Below are positions 31,619 through 39,019 of a stretch of 39,019 bases of DNA, one piece after another. The first letter of the stretch is position 1. Every line of letters begins with the position of its first letter. Below the pieces are notes generated by a model, which was not told the DNA's origin, made no database searches, and saw nothing but the letters and a program-made list of their open reading frames with translations. Origin of the DNA: Candidatus Omnitrophota bacterium (lineage in GTDB: Bacteria > Omnitrophota > Gorgyraeia > Zapsychrales > Fredricksoniimonadaceae); NCBI GenBank assembly GCA_028870995.1, contig JAGWOI010000020.1:1-39019 (forward strand). Reading direction: 5' to 3'. Both the position numbers and the translations under genes were made by a program.

Positions 31619-31710
31619 TGGCGGAGAGGTCGGGATTCGAACCCGAGGGCCCAGTTACCCAGGCCAGTTGCTTAGCAGGCAACTGCAATCAGCCACTCTG
31701 CCACCTCTCC
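31619..31710 (-). tRNA. tRNA-Ser (anticodon GCT)
   Basis: A complete class II tRNA of 92 nt read on the minus strand. The acceptor stem is GGAGAGG/CCTCTCC, with discriminator G and a genome-encoded CCA (31621-31619). The anticodon arm is GTTGC-CTGCTAA-GCAAC, giving GCT, which reads AGC and AGU. The long variable arm (about 19 nt, GGCC stem) identifies serine. The T-arm is TCGGG-TTCGAAT-CCCGA. A promoter lies at 31738-31766. The AsmA gene begins 14 nt downstream. Confidence 0.97.
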
Positions 31711-33894: not shown

Positions 33895-35256
33895 TCAGCG
33901 GGCCTTCTTGGCGTCGCTGAGCATGCGGTCGCGGTCCAGGCCGATCTTGGCCATGGCCTCCTTGGGATTCAAGGCGTAATAACGGCAGAAAGTTGAAACT
34001 TCCTTGATCGTATGAATGTCGCGCTTGTCCAGAGTCTTGAGCACCGCAGCCCGGACCCACGTTTCGTCGATGACATCGCGCGGCGTCATTCCCGCTTCCT
34101 GGGCCAAGCGGTCACGGTACACGGTGCTCGGAGAAACGGCAGTGACGTGATTTTGCTCGTAATTATATTTAAAAACATGGGATAAAAGGACCTTGCTCGC
34201 CTCCATCCCGCTGGTTTCGGAAATTTCATCGATGACGCGGTAAAGCTTGCCCTTGACATGATAACGCTTCAGGATAATAAAGACGTCGATCAAATTGATG
34301 AGCGCATCCGGCACATTCATGGGCTCGTTATGGAGCCGTGTTATGGTCTCGCGGGCCGTCAGCGCATGGATTGTACCCATGCAGTATTTACCGATATTGA
34401 CTGCGGTGATCATGTCCCTCGCTTCACTGCCGCGGACTTCACCCACAATAATTCGCTCCGGGCGCATGCGCAGGCTGTTCTTCACCAATGCCGACAGGTC
34501 CAGCTCATCATCCGTTTCCAGGCGGGAACAGCTGTCCTCCATAAAGGTATTTAATTCCAGCGTATCCTCAATGACGACCAGGCGGTCTTTTTCGGGAATA
34601 AAACTCAATAAGGCATTCAAAAGTGTCGTCTTGCCTGTCCCCGGCCCGCCGGAAATAATGACATTAGCCGGCCTGATGGAGAGCCCCTCGAGGTAAAGCC
34701 ACAATTGACCGGCCGCCTCGTAGCTCATCGTCCCACGGCGGATCAAGTCAATCACACTTAAAGGGTCCATCTTGGCCTTGGTGATGGTCAACTGAACACC
34801 CAAGGGCGAATCGATGATATTAACGCGGCCGGCCAGATTGACCAATTCTAGATTGACGATCTTGTGGTAACTTTTCCGGCCGCAAAAAACCAAAAGCTTT
34901 TGGATAAAGTTACCCAACTCCTTCTGTGTACGGAAAGTTTTATCGGTGGCGATCAATCCTTTTTGGGAGTGATGGATATAAATCGGCTTTAGCGCGTTGA
35001 TGATGATGTCTTCGACTTCAACATTGTAAAGCAACTCTTCAATGATGCCGTAGGAAAGGAATTTCTTAACGAAGATGTCCCGGTTCTCGGCGGAGCCGCA
35101 GGCAACAGCATAGTCCTGGCCCTCCAGCTTAAGCGCCTCTTCCAAAGCGGCCCTGACCATGGCTTCCCGTTCGGCATCGGTCTGCATCAGGCTCATCTTG
35201 CCGGCCAGTTTATGCAGCAGCAGCGATTCCAACTCCAGGTGCTCGTGTTTGTTCAT
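33895..35256 (-). CDS. CpaF-family secretion ATPase (copy 2)
   Basis: A 453-aa P-loop ATPase of the secretion superfamily with a divergent CpaF-like N-terminal domain (LLYNVEVEDIIINALKPIYI). Walker A is GGPGTGKTT (203-211), the Asp box VVIEDTLELN, Walker B RIIVGEVRG (268-276), and a His-box-like stretch is GTIHALTARETITRLHNEP. After the ATPase core a C-terminal extension of about 90 residues (ending RDRMLSDAKKAR) is not typical of CpaF. It is the third gene of a tight operon after the pseudopilin-like protein and the 179-aa unknown. It differs clearly from copy 1, so it belongs to a separate system. Confidence 0.88.
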   Translation of the reverse strand: MNKHEHLELESLLLHKLAGKMSLMQTDAEREAMVRAALEEALKLEGQDYAVACGSAENRDIFVKKFLSYGIIEELLYNVEVEDIIINALKPIYIHHSQKGLIATDKTFRTQKELGNFIQKLLVFCGRKSYHKIVNLELVNLAGRVNIIDSPLGVQLTITKAKMDPLSVIDLIRRGTMSYEAAGQLWLYLEGLSIRPANVIISGGPGTGKTTLLNALLSFIPEKDRLVVIEDTLELNTFMEDSCSRLETDDELDLSALVKNSLRMRPERIIVGEVRGSEARDMITAVNIGKYCMGTIHALTARETITRLHNEPMNVPDALINLIDVFIILKRYHVKGKLYRVIDEISETSGMEASKVLLSHVFKYNYEQNHVTAVSPSTVYRDRLAQEAGMTPRDVIDETWVRAAVLKTLDKRDIHTIKEVSTFCRYYALNPKEAMAKIGLDRDRMLSDAKKAR

Positions 35257-35805: not shown

Positions 35806-36213
35806 TTAATGAATTCTTATCCTCAAATTCGATACCAGGGTTACGTCGCTTTTGGCTTCTATGCGGATTTCCAGAATATTGGGGCTCTGTTTCAGGCGGC
35901 GCACCCGCAGCGCGGCAATATGATCCGCCACCAAGAACCTGGTCTTGCCGTTGATATGGAACAGATTCCCTTCCTTAATAATATATTCAGGATCGCCGTG
36001 CCACCGGCCGTCCACCGGGGTTTTCAAGAGCGCATCATTCCTGTTCTCGCTTAAATCCAGGAACAAACTTTCCAGCACCTTCCTTATGTCCTTGGCTAGA
36101 ACCACCTTCCGGTTGTATTCTTGAAAATGCTTAATTTTAAAAAAAGTAAGCACCATCAAAATAACAAACGGGATAAACAGGCAAACGTAGATGATTTTCA
36201 GTTTATTAGACAT
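35806..36213 (-). CDS. Membrane-anchored pseudopilin-like protein
   Basis: A 135-aa protein with one N-terminal helix (about residues 7-28, IIYVCLFIPFVILMVLTFF). A domain follows with the pattern of GspJ/PilW-type minor pseudopilins: DIRKVLESLFLDLSENRND, then YIIKEGNLFHINGKTRFLVADHIAALRVRRL and a strand-rich C-terminus. The canonical G/FTxxE prepilin cleavage motif is absent, so it may not be processed like a pilin. I place the start at the ATG at 36213, which has a perfect GGAGGAG just upstream. The open frame to 36342 runs through the tRNA relic and is rejected. Assignment to pseudopilins rests on pattern and adjacency to a CpaF ATPase. Confidence 0.65.
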   Translation of the reverse strand: MSNKLKIIYVCLFIPFVILMVLTFFKIKHFQEYNRKVVLAKDIRKVLESLFLDLSENRNDALLKTPVDGRWHGDPEYIIKEGNLFHINGKTRFLVADHIAALRVRRLKQSPNILEIRIEAKSDVTLVSNLRIRIH

Positions 36214-36228
36214 AAACTCCTCCAAATC

Positions 36229-36272
36229 TGGCGGAGAGGGTGAGATTCTGGCCTCAAATAATGCTCTCTCCG
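36229..36272 (-). other. tRNA-Ser 3'-end relic, probable attachment site (attL)
   Basis: On the minus strand positions 36248-36229 read GAATCTCACCCTCTCCGCCA. This is the 3' part of a tRNA-Ser gene: part of the T-loop, T-stem strand CTCAC, acceptor strand CCTCTCC, discriminator G and CCA. It matches the tRNA-Ser(GCT) 3' end at 17 of 20 positions. No anticodon or D arm follows, so it is not a tRNA gene. CGGAGAG at 36272-36266 can pair with CTCTCCG at 36238-36232. The site sits between the integrase gene and the host operon, as expected for an attachment junction. Confidence 0.6.
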
Positions 36273-36296
36273 TCGATAAATCAACATTTGACCCTT

Positions 36297-36325
36297 CAGA
36301 TTTTGACAGATTTTGACAAAATCTG
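36297..36325. repeat. Tandem CAGATTTTGA repeats with an inverted copy
   Basis: CAGATTTTGA occurs twice in tandem (36297-36306 and 36307-36316). The second copy forms a perfect palindrome CAGATTTT-GAC-AAAATCTG (36307-36325). They lie between the integrase stop and the tRNA relic. They could be integrase arm-type sites, or the palindrome could be a terminator-like hairpin for the integrase transcript. Confidence 0.6.
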
Positions 36326-36341
36326 CTTCTTAGATTTTCCA

Positions 36342-37472
36342 TTATGTCTTAACCTTTTTACTTTGTCCATAGGAAAGACTGCTAAACTGGTCCGCAATAT
36401 AATTAGGGTCTAAATGCGTGTATTTGCGCGTCATTACAGGTGACGTGTGCCCCAAAGCCCCCTGGACCAAGGACTCTGCTGCCCCACCCTTTATTGATAA
36501 GCTGGTAAATGTATGCCGCCCCCGATGAAAGGGTTGTTTAGGCGGCAGGCCAGCCTTATCCATAGCCTCAATAGCTGTTACATAACAGCGGTCATAATGG
36601 ATGGGCTTCCCATCCTTGCCGGGAAATAGTAAGGGTGACGGATTATCTTTGACCTCATTCATCCACACTCTCAAAATAACCTCTAACTCTGGATTAAGCG
36701 GCACATAACGGTCTTTTCGGGTCTTGGTGTAATATTGGATACTATCAATGATTTTATTGTGAACATAGATCCGGCGCGAAGAAAACTCAATATCGGTTTT
36801 AAAAAGATGTGTCGACTCTGAAACCCTTAAGCCCGCATAATAAGCAATGGCTGTTATTTCAAAACAGCATTTGTCTATTGGGCGCGGGCCTTGTTTCATC
36901 AGCTTTAATTGTTCAAGAAGTTTGCCCACTTCATCAGGGGTTAAGGTCTCCGGGGAAACATTGTCCGGCTCATCAACCTTTTTTATCTTTGAAACCGGGT
37001 TTTTATCAATCCAGCCATTATCAAGGGTATAAATAAAGAAGTTTGTAAGGATATTCCTCTTATCGTTACGGGTATGCGGATTTAACCCCTTATCAAGAAT
37101 CCCCTGCAAATATTTCTCGACCATCGGTTTTTCAATGTCTTGAAGCAACGGCATTGTCCCTAATTCTTGGACGATAAAATTTTTGAATTCCAAAATTGTG
37201 GCCTTATATTTAATAAAACTCTTTTTAGCCAGTGATCCTCTGGCTATTAAATAAGCGTCTATTGCCTTGTCCAAAGCCGCGTCCGTAAAGGTTTGGTTAT
37301 TGGCCCGGGCATATAACTGCCTTAAATATTCATCCCTTACTCTTTCCGCATCTCTTTTAACGCTCTGGCGCGTATTGTAGTGACGTTTTTTCGGCTTAAG
37401 ATGGGTCGGAATCTTAAAACAGTATGTTTTACCGCCAGGCGGAAGATATAGTTTTACTTGGTTAAATTTCAT
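36342..37472 (-). CDS. Tyrosine recombinase/integrase
   Basis: A 376-aa site-specific recombinase of the phage integrase family. The N-terminal part includes an arm/core-binding domain (about 60-155, with YLIARGSLAKKSFIKYKATI). The catalytic domain has Arg216 (YAGLRVSES), a lysine-containing beta-hairpin (TKTRKDRYVPL), His316 and Arg319 in FHRGRHTFTSL, His342 in LGHTSPVMT and nucleophile Tyr351 (RKYTHL). All catalytic residues are present, so it is probably active. I take the ATG at 37472, overlapping slightly upstream with the excisionase-like gene. The gene is more AT-rich than the neighbouring housekeeping genes. Confidence 0.94.
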   Translation of the reverse strand: MKFNQVKLYLPPGGKTYCFKIPTHLKPKKRHYNTRQSVKRDAERVRDEYLRQLYARANNQTFTDAALDKAIDAYLIARGSLAKKSFIKYKATILEFKNFIVQELGTMPLLQDIEKPMVEKYLQGILDKGLNPHTRNDKRNILTNFFIYTLDNGWIDKNPVSKIKKVDEPDNVSPETLTPDEVGKLLEQLKLMKQGPRPIDKCCFEITAIAYYAGLRVSESTHLFKTDIEFSSRRIYVHNKIIDSIQYYTKTRKDRYVPLNPELEVILRVWMNEVKDNPSPLLFPGKDGKPIHYDRCYVTAIEAMDKAGLPPKQPFHRGRHTFTSLSIKGGAAESLVQGALGHTSPVMTRKYTHLDPNYIADQFSSLSYGQSKKVKT

Positions 37473-37474
37473 AA

Positions 37475-37690
37475 TCAATTTTTAGAATACAGTGTTGGAG
37501 ACGACTTTCTGACCGTTAGCCTTGCGATAGCTTCCTTTATCTGTTGTTCAGTGACCATTCTCCTGCCGTGCCAATTAACATGCTCAATAGAACCATCTTT
37601 AAGGAGATCATTAACCGTATTCTTGCCCAACCCCGTCATTTCCTTTAGCTCTTTAGGGCTATACATCTTAATTCCGCACAATTCGATCAT
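37475..37690 (-). CDS. AlpA/excisionase-type HTH protein
   Basis: A 71-aa DNA-binding protein with a MerR-like/HTH_17 fold: MYSPKELKEMTGLGKNTVNDLL, then a wing with HVNWHGRRMVTEQQIKEAIARL. Such proteins act as excisionases or regulators next to integrases. I choose the ATG at 37690, with AAAGGAGGTGA as ribosome binding site; the open frame continues to 37723, but that start would lie within the leader. It is directly upstream of the integrase (stop at 37475, ATG at 37472), so the two are coupled. Confidence 0.85.
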   Translation of the reverse strand: MIELCGIKMYSPKELKEMTGLGKNTVNDLLKDGSIEHVNWHGRRMVTEQQIKEAIARLTVRKSSPTLYSKN

Positions 37691-37737
37691 CCCATCACCT
37701 CCTTTTGGTAAACCATCACTCAAACAATCTCTTTCAG

Positions 37738-37761
37738 ATAACTAACAGATTTGTTAGTTAT
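37738..37761. promoter_or_regulatory. Operator O1, palindrome between xis and the XRE gene
   Basis: ATAACTAACA and TGTTAGTTAT form a perfect 10-bp inverted repeat around a GATT spacer. It covers the predicted start site of the leftward xis-int promoter. The XRE regulator encoded divergently is the likely binder. Confidence 0.7.
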
Positions 37762-37762
37762 A

Positions 37763-37790
37763 AGTATAAAACGAAACAGAAATATGTCAA
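37763..37790 (-). promoter_or_regulatory. Promoter of the excisionase-integrase operon
   Basis: TTGACA (37790-37785, perfect consensus), 16-bp spacer, TATACT (37768-37763) on the minus strand. The predicted start near 37756 falls inside operator O1, so the operator would block it. Confidence 0.7.
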
Positions 37791-37798
37791 GAAATAAC

Positions 37799-37827
37799 TT
37801 GTTTGTTAGTTTTTTATGAATTATACT
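37799..37827 (+). promoter_or_regulatory. Promoter of the XRE regulator, overlapping operator half-site O2
   Basis: TTGTTT (37799-37804), 17-bp spacer, TATACT (37822-37827). The predicted start falls at about 37834, which is the A of an in-frame ATG, suggesting a leaderless mRNA. TTTGTTAGTT at 37802-37811 repeats one arm of O1 and overlaps the -35, which fits autoregulation. Confidence 0.5.
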
Positions 37828-37833
37828 TCTGGC

Positions 37834-38430
37834 ATGGCAAATATGGGACAAATTATAAGGAAACGGCGCAAATACCTAAAACTTCAAGTTAAGGAATTAG
37901 GCAATAAAGTAGGCGTTGACCCCGTATACATAACACAAATTGAAGTTCATAATAAAATGCCTTCTTTGGAAGTTTACAAAAAGATTGAGAAGGCTTTACT
38001 ACTCCCTCCCTATTATCGCACCCAGTACTTCAGAGAAAAACATCCAGAATATACCAAAAATATGCTCACAGAAGACATTATTAAGCAAGTACGAGATGCC
38101 TCGGTTAAAGACGATCCAAACGCCCCACCCCCTGATACATTTCATGAGGTGGACATGTTTTTTCGCTTTAAAGACCCAACTCCGCAGGAAATCCGGGCGT
38201 TTGTGCTTGATACAGCACATGAATTAAATCCAGAAGTGACTTTAAATGAAAAAACTATCAAGGAACTTGTCTCGATAGTCAAAGATGCCATAAAACACAG
38301 AGATTTACTTAGAAGCGGACGAAGGAAGTTTACTCAAAAGATTGAATCTATCACCAAAGCCAAGGTATTGAAACCCTTGGATCCAAACGTTAAAATCGAC
38401 CCCAACAATATAAAAATCTCCCTATCATAA
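37834..38430 (+). CDS. XRE-family HTH regulator of the mobile element
   Basis: A protein of about 198 aa, the only real plus-strand gene in the window. An N-terminal Cro/CI-type HTH (about residues 1-60: MGQIIRKRRKYLKLQVKELG, VDPVYITQIEV, PSLEVYKKIEKAL) is followed by a charged helical region of unknown family (about 60-198) with no LexA-like peptidase motif. I take the ATG at 37834. An ATG at 37816 in the same frame is possible but has no ribosome binding site, and the predicted promoter would start transcription after it. It is divergent from xis-int and shares the operator region, so it is the likely lysogeny-type repressor of the element. Confidence 0.85.
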   Translation: MANMGQIIRKRRKYLKLQVKELGNKVGVDPVYITQIEVHNKMPSLEVYKKIEKALLLPPYYRTQYFREKHPEYTKNMLTEDIIKQVRDASVKDDPNAPPPDTFHEVDMFFRFKDPTPQEIRAFVLDTAHELNPEVTLNEKTIKELVSIVKDAIKHRDLLRSGRRKFTQKIESITKAKVLKPLDPNVKIDPNNIKISLS

Positions 38431-38447: not shown

Positions 38448-39019
38448 TTAATGATATATGGAAGAAACCCCAAAATGTTGGCTGATGGATTCATCAGAGA
38501 GCGGCGCGGGCAATTCCATTCCTTTAATCTCATTTAACTGCGCAAGAACATCCCTCATATTCTTTAGCGGCCCGCCACGGAAAGCTAAATAACAGCCCCT
38601 TCGAAAATACGCGCCCATGATAGCCTCATTCTTCATCATCCTACGATCTGATCCTTCAAAATAACCAAGATCTATGACCATCCGGTTAATTGTGCCTATC
38701 ATCACGCGATCAAGGGTTGATGTCACCCGAATCTCTTTCATGCGCTCATTAAAAATCCCAATAACCTCTGCCGGATAATGCTCATCGTAGAGGGCCTTTC
38801 TGAGCCTTTGGCGGAATATGGCCTCAATGGAATTAATATCTTCCCTGCTGACGTCCATGGCAAAAAAACAAAACATGGTCCCAGCGTGAGCAAAGACCAC
38901 ACATTTACGCCTGGGATAAAGCGTAAAAACATGACCATACCATTCATCTAAGGGATGGGCAGATTGCGGCTGGATCGTAATATCTGCCTTTTTAAGCCGT
39001 AGTTCCGTAAGCAATTTTT
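38448..39019 (-). CDS. DUF6933-like protein, 5' end outside window
   Basis: An open frame of at least 188 codons that continues to the right edge. The first possible start in the window is a TTG at 39014, but the sequence (LTELRLKKAD) looks like the interior of the usual N-terminus, so the true start is probably beyond 39019. The N-terminal part matches my memory of DUF6933: HPLDEWYGHVFTLYPRRKCVVFAHAGTMFC, with a C-terminal extension (NEAIMGAYFRRGCYLAFRGG). Function is unknown. It is oriented towards the XRE gene and is probably element cargo. Confidence 0.75.
   Translation of the reverse strand, partial: KLLTELRLKKADITIQPQSAHPLDEWYGHVFTLYPRRKCVVFAHAGTMFCFFAMDVSREDINSIEAIFRQRLRKALYDEHYPAEVIGIFNERMKEIRVTSTLDRVMIGTINRMVIDLGYFEGSDRRMMKNEAIMGAYFRRGCYLAFRGGPLKNMRDVLAQLNEIKGMELPAPLSDESISQHFGVSSIYH

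Follow-up and report, generated by a model that had tools for sequence, protein, structure and literature searches.

A tRNA-Ser(CGA)-integrated element at the end of a Candidatus Omnitrophota contig, and a predicted repressor-operator switch that recurs elsewhere in the phylum

Insertion of a mobile element into a tRNA gene is a common kind of event. In the Islander survey (Hudson et al. 2014, PMC4383910), tRNA-integrated islands are defined by an integrase gene inside the island and a displaced 3' end of the tDNA; an intact cognate tDNA has to be found on the same replicon and in the same orientation, with the fragment on its 3' side, the fragment must not overlap a conserved protein domain, and the length is set at 2-200 kb (PMC4383910). 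The locus described here shares with these islands a tyrosine integrase within the island and a displaced 3' tDNA fragment in the expected orientation, and its scar starts in the T-loop, as in the T-loop/T-stem crossover class of Islander ('site J', PMC4383910). Unlike the Islander islands, it has its integrase next to the displaced fragment and not next to the intact tRNA, and only one of its ends is assembled here.

The window, that is, the whole stretch of DNA analysed, is a complete contig (C11) of 39,019 bp from a genome of 59 contigs that is 94.6% complete; its relatives in the named genome collection are nearly all Candidatus Omnitrophota MAGs. The element is a tRNA-integrated island known here from the 2.8 kb at one of its ends, and this portion contains neither relaxase or type IV secretion genes nor packaging or structural genes. 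The reading preferred here, to which we assign a probability of about 0.9, is that the tyrosine integrase of an integrative element recombined this element with tRNA-Ser(CGA), in the 3' part of the gene, that the restored tRNA stands at the far end, and that an XRE-family switch acts on the xis and int genes. Four observations lie behind it: there is a scar, the integrase beside it is intact, relatives have the site empty, and the assembly contains neither tRNA-Ser(CGA) nor the genes expected upstream of it. The features of the region, from left to right, are as follows.

35806-36213, minus strand: chromosomal gene left of the scar, ATG at 36213, no Pfam matches
36229-36247, minus strand: displaced 3' end of tRNA-Ser(CGA), AATCTCACCCTCTCCGCCA, the attachment-site core at the junction of chromosome and element
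36249-36341, no strand: integrase-side attachment arm, 94 bp from the scar to the integrase stop
36342-37478, minus strand: tyrosine integrase, start ATG 37472 or TTG 37478; Pfam Phage_integrase PF00589, E=5e-26; PHROG integrase, 6e-52
37475-37690 (ORF 37475-37723), minus strand: excisionase-like HTH_17 protein; PF12728, 4.5e-7; phrog_66 excisionase/regulator, 3.8e-4, weak
37740-37759, no strand: predicted operator O1, AACTAACAGATTTGTTAGTT, covering the position where xis-int transcription is expected to start
37763-37790, minus strand: xis-int promoter, TTGACA-16-TATACT, 11/12
37792-37811, no strand: predicted operator O2, AAATAACTTGTTTGTTAGTT, immediately before the xis-int -35 and covering the position expected for the XRE -35
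37822-37827, plus strand: XRE promoter, with its -10 box TATACT ending 6 nt short of ATG 37834
37834-38430 (alternative start 37816), plus strand: XRE-family (HTH_3) regulator; PF01381, 1.9e-7
38448-39017, minus strand: DUF6933 protein, cut by the contig end; PF22016, 9.2e-25

In sequence, the scar corresponds to the 3' terminus of tRNA-Ser(CGA). The 19-mer AATCTCACCCTCTCCGCCA occurs without mismatch at 36229-36247 of the minus strand and forms the terminal 19 nt of a serine tRNA, from the T-loop to CCA (positions ~58-76); no rest of a tRNA is found at 36229 by ARAGORN. It agrees at 19/19 positions with the tRNA-Ser(CGA) 3' end of two congeners, G003 and G006, the identity to the CGA gene starting in the T-loop (tRNA position ~58) and ending at CCA, and the sequences diverge 5' of the scar; the tRNA-Ser(CGA) 3' end of a third congener, G002, has one difference. 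The sequence-only reading had reported a 20-nt tRNA-Ser 3' end separated from the rest of its tRNA: 19 nt of this are exact, but the 20th base, G at 36248, is the one that Ser(TGA) and Ser(GGA) of this genome have and differs from the CGA gene of the relatives. The same reading had counted three mismatches to tRNA-Ser(GCT), which is indeed the only other site in the window with three or fewer mismatches to the 19-mer (31619-31637, exactly three; shuffled sequences average 0.01 matches), and its prediction of a serine isoacceptor other than GCT is borne out, the tRNA at this site in the relatives being CGA. The scar is assigned to tRNA-Ser(CGA), with the element to its right, because tRNA-Ser(CGA) precedes the ortholog of the left-hand gene in relatives. 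It lies between the integrase gene and the ATG at 36213 and overlaps no conserved protein domain, and the GC content changes at this point from 0.49-0.51 on the left to 0.37-0.43 on the right.

Orthologs of the left-hand gene (35806-36213) are clear in G006 and G002 by protein search; the G003 copy contains a stretch of N that interrupts it, and the search accordingly did not pick it up. In G006 (C59) tRNA-Ser(CGA) ends 11 bp before the ortholog, in G003 (C23) 12 bp separate its end from the start codon of this gene, and in G002 (C22) it precedes the ortholog at a distance of 0.86 kb, with a stomatin-like gene between them. G006 and G003 share the order SerS, membrane protein, tRNA-Ser(CGA), ortholog, a gene of 179/180 aa and CpaF-like ATPase. 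In G003, where the membrane protein has 196 aa and the gene before the ATPase 180 aa, the collinear series continues through tRNA-Arg(ACG), a histidine kinase and a deaminase to tRNA-Ser(GCT). Read leftwards from the scar, the window has the G003 order, except that two additional small genes separate the deaminase from tRNA-Ser(GCT); its CpaF-like ATPase (33895-35256) is outside the element and a core gene in relatives. The integrase, xis, XRE and DUF6933 genes are absent from this site in all three congeners (G002, G003 and G006). G006 C59 and G003 C23 are unoccupied sites, and so is G002 C22, with altered surroundings. These sites support the earlier placement of the element to the right of the scar, and a check of whether the layout of 36.2-39 kb belongs to the core genome of relatives, now run, found it absent there, so that the reading stands.

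The integrase beside the scar, described as intact from the letters alone, has a Pfam match and retains its catalytic residues, R218, H318-R-G-R321, H344 and Y353, in the expected motifs. As a query it gave no matches among the named genomes, and the integrase, XRE and DUF6933 proteins and a 31-base exact pattern gave none against viral contigs. The gene before it, previously called excisionase-like, keeps this description with its HTH_17 match and a weak match to PHROG excisionases; it encodes 71 aa from an ATG served by the ribosome site AGGAGGTG, and int starts ~2 nt past the xis stop. The attachment arm contains a 10-bp direct repeat, CAGATTTTGA, at 36297 and 36307, one helical turn apart, and a 9+1+9 palindrome, CAGATTTTGACAAAATCTG, at 36307-36325, within an inverted repeat at 36297-36325; the CAGATTTTGA repeats and the palindrome are probable arm sites of Int and Xis. 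The DUF6933 protein is the first visible cargo gene and resembles the PADLOC defence candidate PDC-S63 (1.3e-15).

The contig stops at 39019 and no contig continues it; the portion of the element on it amounts to at least 2.79 kb. The restored tRNA must lie rightwards, because the scar is a 3' end on the minus strand. The tRNA-Ser genes assembled in this genome are Ser(GCT), Ser(GGA) and Ser(TGA); tRNA-Ser(CGA) is absent from the assembly, as are SerS and the membrane protein, its neighbours in G003 and G006. Since SerS is essential, its absence is an assembly gap, and the simplest placement of the missing segment, comprising tRNA-Ser(CGA), the membrane protein and SerS, should be beyond 39019, although the absence of SerS could instead be an unrelated gap in a MAG that is 94.6% complete. 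No ortholog of the response regulator adjoining SerS in the relatives was found above 38% identity in this genome, and the far flank is therefore not placeable on another contig. A search of the same genome for a second copy of the contig end also gave none.

The lack of tRNA-Ser(CGA) from the assembly would also agree with a relic, in which the intact-tRNA end of the element was later deleted or rearranged and tRNA-Ser(CGA) was lost, leaving a stranded fragment, UCG being readable by Ser(TGA). The tRNA-Ser loci are indeed rearranged in the genus (in G002, SerS and the membrane protein precede Ser(TGA), and Ser(CGA) lies behind a bactofilin gene), but SerS, which cannot have been lost, is missing as well, and the integrase, xis and control region are intact and free of decay, which makes such a history quite improbable. 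Less probable still is that the restored tRNA has already been assembled, as Ser(TGA) on C15 or Ser(GGA) on C23, with the right end of the window joining that contig. Ser(TGA) at C15:3708-3792 shares GAATCTCACCCTCTCCG at 17/17 bases, but it is without the CCA present at the scar and is directly followed by a core H+-pyrophosphatase gene, a pair also found in G006. Ser(GGA) at C23:2732-2823 has the right orientation, an integrase at 1580-2647 and a contig that begins inside element-like DNA, but its 3' end differs at two positions, the integrase is a different one, 24% identical to that of the window, and the relatives have Ser(CGA) at the scar site. A single junction is visible, so that a chance resemblance, or a decayed tRNA near an ordinary chromosomal recombinase with no element at all, might be considered; this deserves hardly any weight, as the exact 19-mer stands at the very position of the relatives' tRNA and the DNA right of the scar is absent from their site, the empty sites refuting it.

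The XRE regulator, pointed out from the sequence as divergent, matches HTH_3 and is encoded on the plus strand, opposite to xis-int on the minus strand. The P22 C2 repressor is among its nearest natural solved relatives (3e-4), and Pfam shows no LexA-type protease domain in its C-terminal half. A repeat search recovers O1 and O2 as 20-bp palindrome-like repeats 52 bp apart that flank the xis-int promoter, and perfect palindromes with arms at least equal to the best of this intergenic region arise in 3/1000 shuffles. The XRE protein is a probable repressor of xis-int and of its own gene, and the XRE mRNA is probably leaderless, a prediction made because TATACT stands 6 nt before ATG 37834.

This control region resembles a lambda/P22-type switch in its XRE/HTH_3 repressor-like protein, its divergent promoters and its paired palindromic operators, which are predicted here, and, the lambda cI mRNA from PRM being leaderless, also in its predicted leaderless repressor mRNA. 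In contrast to lambda and P22, the two operators bracket the xis-int promoter, and no Cro gene or lytic operon is visible on the contig. If the element entered tRNA-Ser(CGA) as proposed, it would have brought its own tRNA 3' end, and the restored tRNA-Ser(CGA) would stand at the far end, with the genes for the membrane protein and SerS behind it. The XRE protein, as a lambda/P22-type repressor translated from a leaderless mRNA, would occupy the two operators ~52 bp apart, keeping the divergent xis-int promoter off and tuning its own; once repression is lifted, Xis and Int would be produced together and the element would be excised. The insertion target can now be named as tRNA-Ser(CGA); what the assembly lacks, the essential SerS among it, is predicted just past the contig.

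Relatives of the XRE protein are found in 11 other Omnitrophota genomes, with an integrase-like gene beside or near the XRE gene in 7 loci (L134-L139, L144). The half-site AACTAAC/GTTAGTT occurs in 12 copies in 5/10 other loci, within 125 bp upstream of the XRE genes, against 0.38 expected; the maximum among 2000 shuffles was 4, and none (0/2000) had as many. It is absent upstream of the related XRE genes in L133, L134, L140 and L143, and L135-L137 have a different or single half-site only. Where the repeat search gave two copies, the operator spacing is 53 bp (G097) and 56 bp (G383), compared with 52 bp here; the TTGACA box of the divergent promoter is kept in related loci, and a TATAAT/TATACT box 6-7 nt before the ATG is present in five of them. 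A scan of 384 genomes with the strict O2 pattern gave 5 occurrences. Of these, 4 stand immediately upstream of genes of this XRE family, each in a different bacterial family (f1, f8, f15, f20); as this pattern was written from loci already known, its specificity is partly circular, and the count demonstrates rarity rather than an independent prediction. The fifth occurrence, in G009 (L162), has no XRE gene; it falls where an unrelated coding gene begins, and was taken as chance. By these comparisons, three further Omnitrophota families have the predicted operator motif and its layout in front of related regulators. A literature search with the operator sequence matched a single, unrelated paper on cyanophages, and limited literature searches gave no study centred on Omnitrophota mobile elements.

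Elements that carry this regulator family differ in type. One parallel with both ends assembled, in G383 (C5:25352-39638, from L152 6352 to L144 12638), is a complete element of ~14.3 kb from another Omnitrophota family, lying between tRNA-Asp and a displaced 3' fragment. It has in common with the element described here the XRE family, a tyrosine integrase and the displaced tRNA 3' fragment, and its operators are 56 bp apart; it differs in having the integrase at the intact-tRNA end and a resolvase in place of xis. It encodes a replication initiator, a D5-like primase, a terminase-small-subunit-like protein and, in 872 aa, a protein that matches an internal virion protein, and is a small phage-like or satellite element. 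A module in G244 (C42, L134) shares with the window a divergent XRE gene and an HTH_17-like gene overlapping int, and has an integrase 30% identical to that of the window, but no GTTAGTT operators, and no tRNA fragment was found there. In G187 and G356 (L140 and L143) the XRE gene belongs to a conserved cluster, between TraG_N-like and TraG/TraD-like (coupling-protein-like) conjugation genes, pointing to ICE-like elements in Omnitrophota.

We give even odds to the broader proposal that one XRE repressor family, paired AATAACTT-N-GTTAGTT operators and a leaderless promoter form a phylum-wide switch module common to otherwise unrelated elements. If so, the module would join different integrases, xis or resolvase partners and tRNA targets, would pass as one unit from element to element, and might exert cross-regulation on elements that share a cell. 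The conserved layout of operators and promoter can serve as a search signature for elements of this kind, and it supplies a concrete, testable regulator-operator pair.

Several other serine-tRNA loci came to light in the course of these comparisons. Among the XRE relatives sampled in the phylum, the nearest (39%) is in G019 (L133, C77, 4621-5109); it lies between SerS and tRNA-Ser(CGA), on the 5' side of the same tRNA locus, with no integrase and no operators. On C23 of the genome described here (L034, 1-2823), a second, different tyrosine integrase (1580-2647) stands directly behind tRNA-Ser(GGA), next to a RelE-like toxin and HTH antitoxin pair (930-1533), with GC low toward the contig start; this stretch is probably where a further element, in a second serine tRNA, has its intact-tRNA end. 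A conserved protein of ~215 aa is encoded directly before tRNA-Ser(TGA) in two genera (L035, own C15, 2965-3615; L133, G019 C77, 8248-8892); it has no Pfam matches and, by eye, looks like a tyrosine integrase reduced to its arm and core-binding half, the catalytic half being absent. In G002 (L051/L065, C22 and C11 of that genome), the upstream neighbours of tRNA-Ser(CGA) and tRNA-Ser(TGA) are swapped relative to G003, G006 and the genome described here, and in this genus the tRNA-Ser genes appear to act as joints at which the genome is rearranged.
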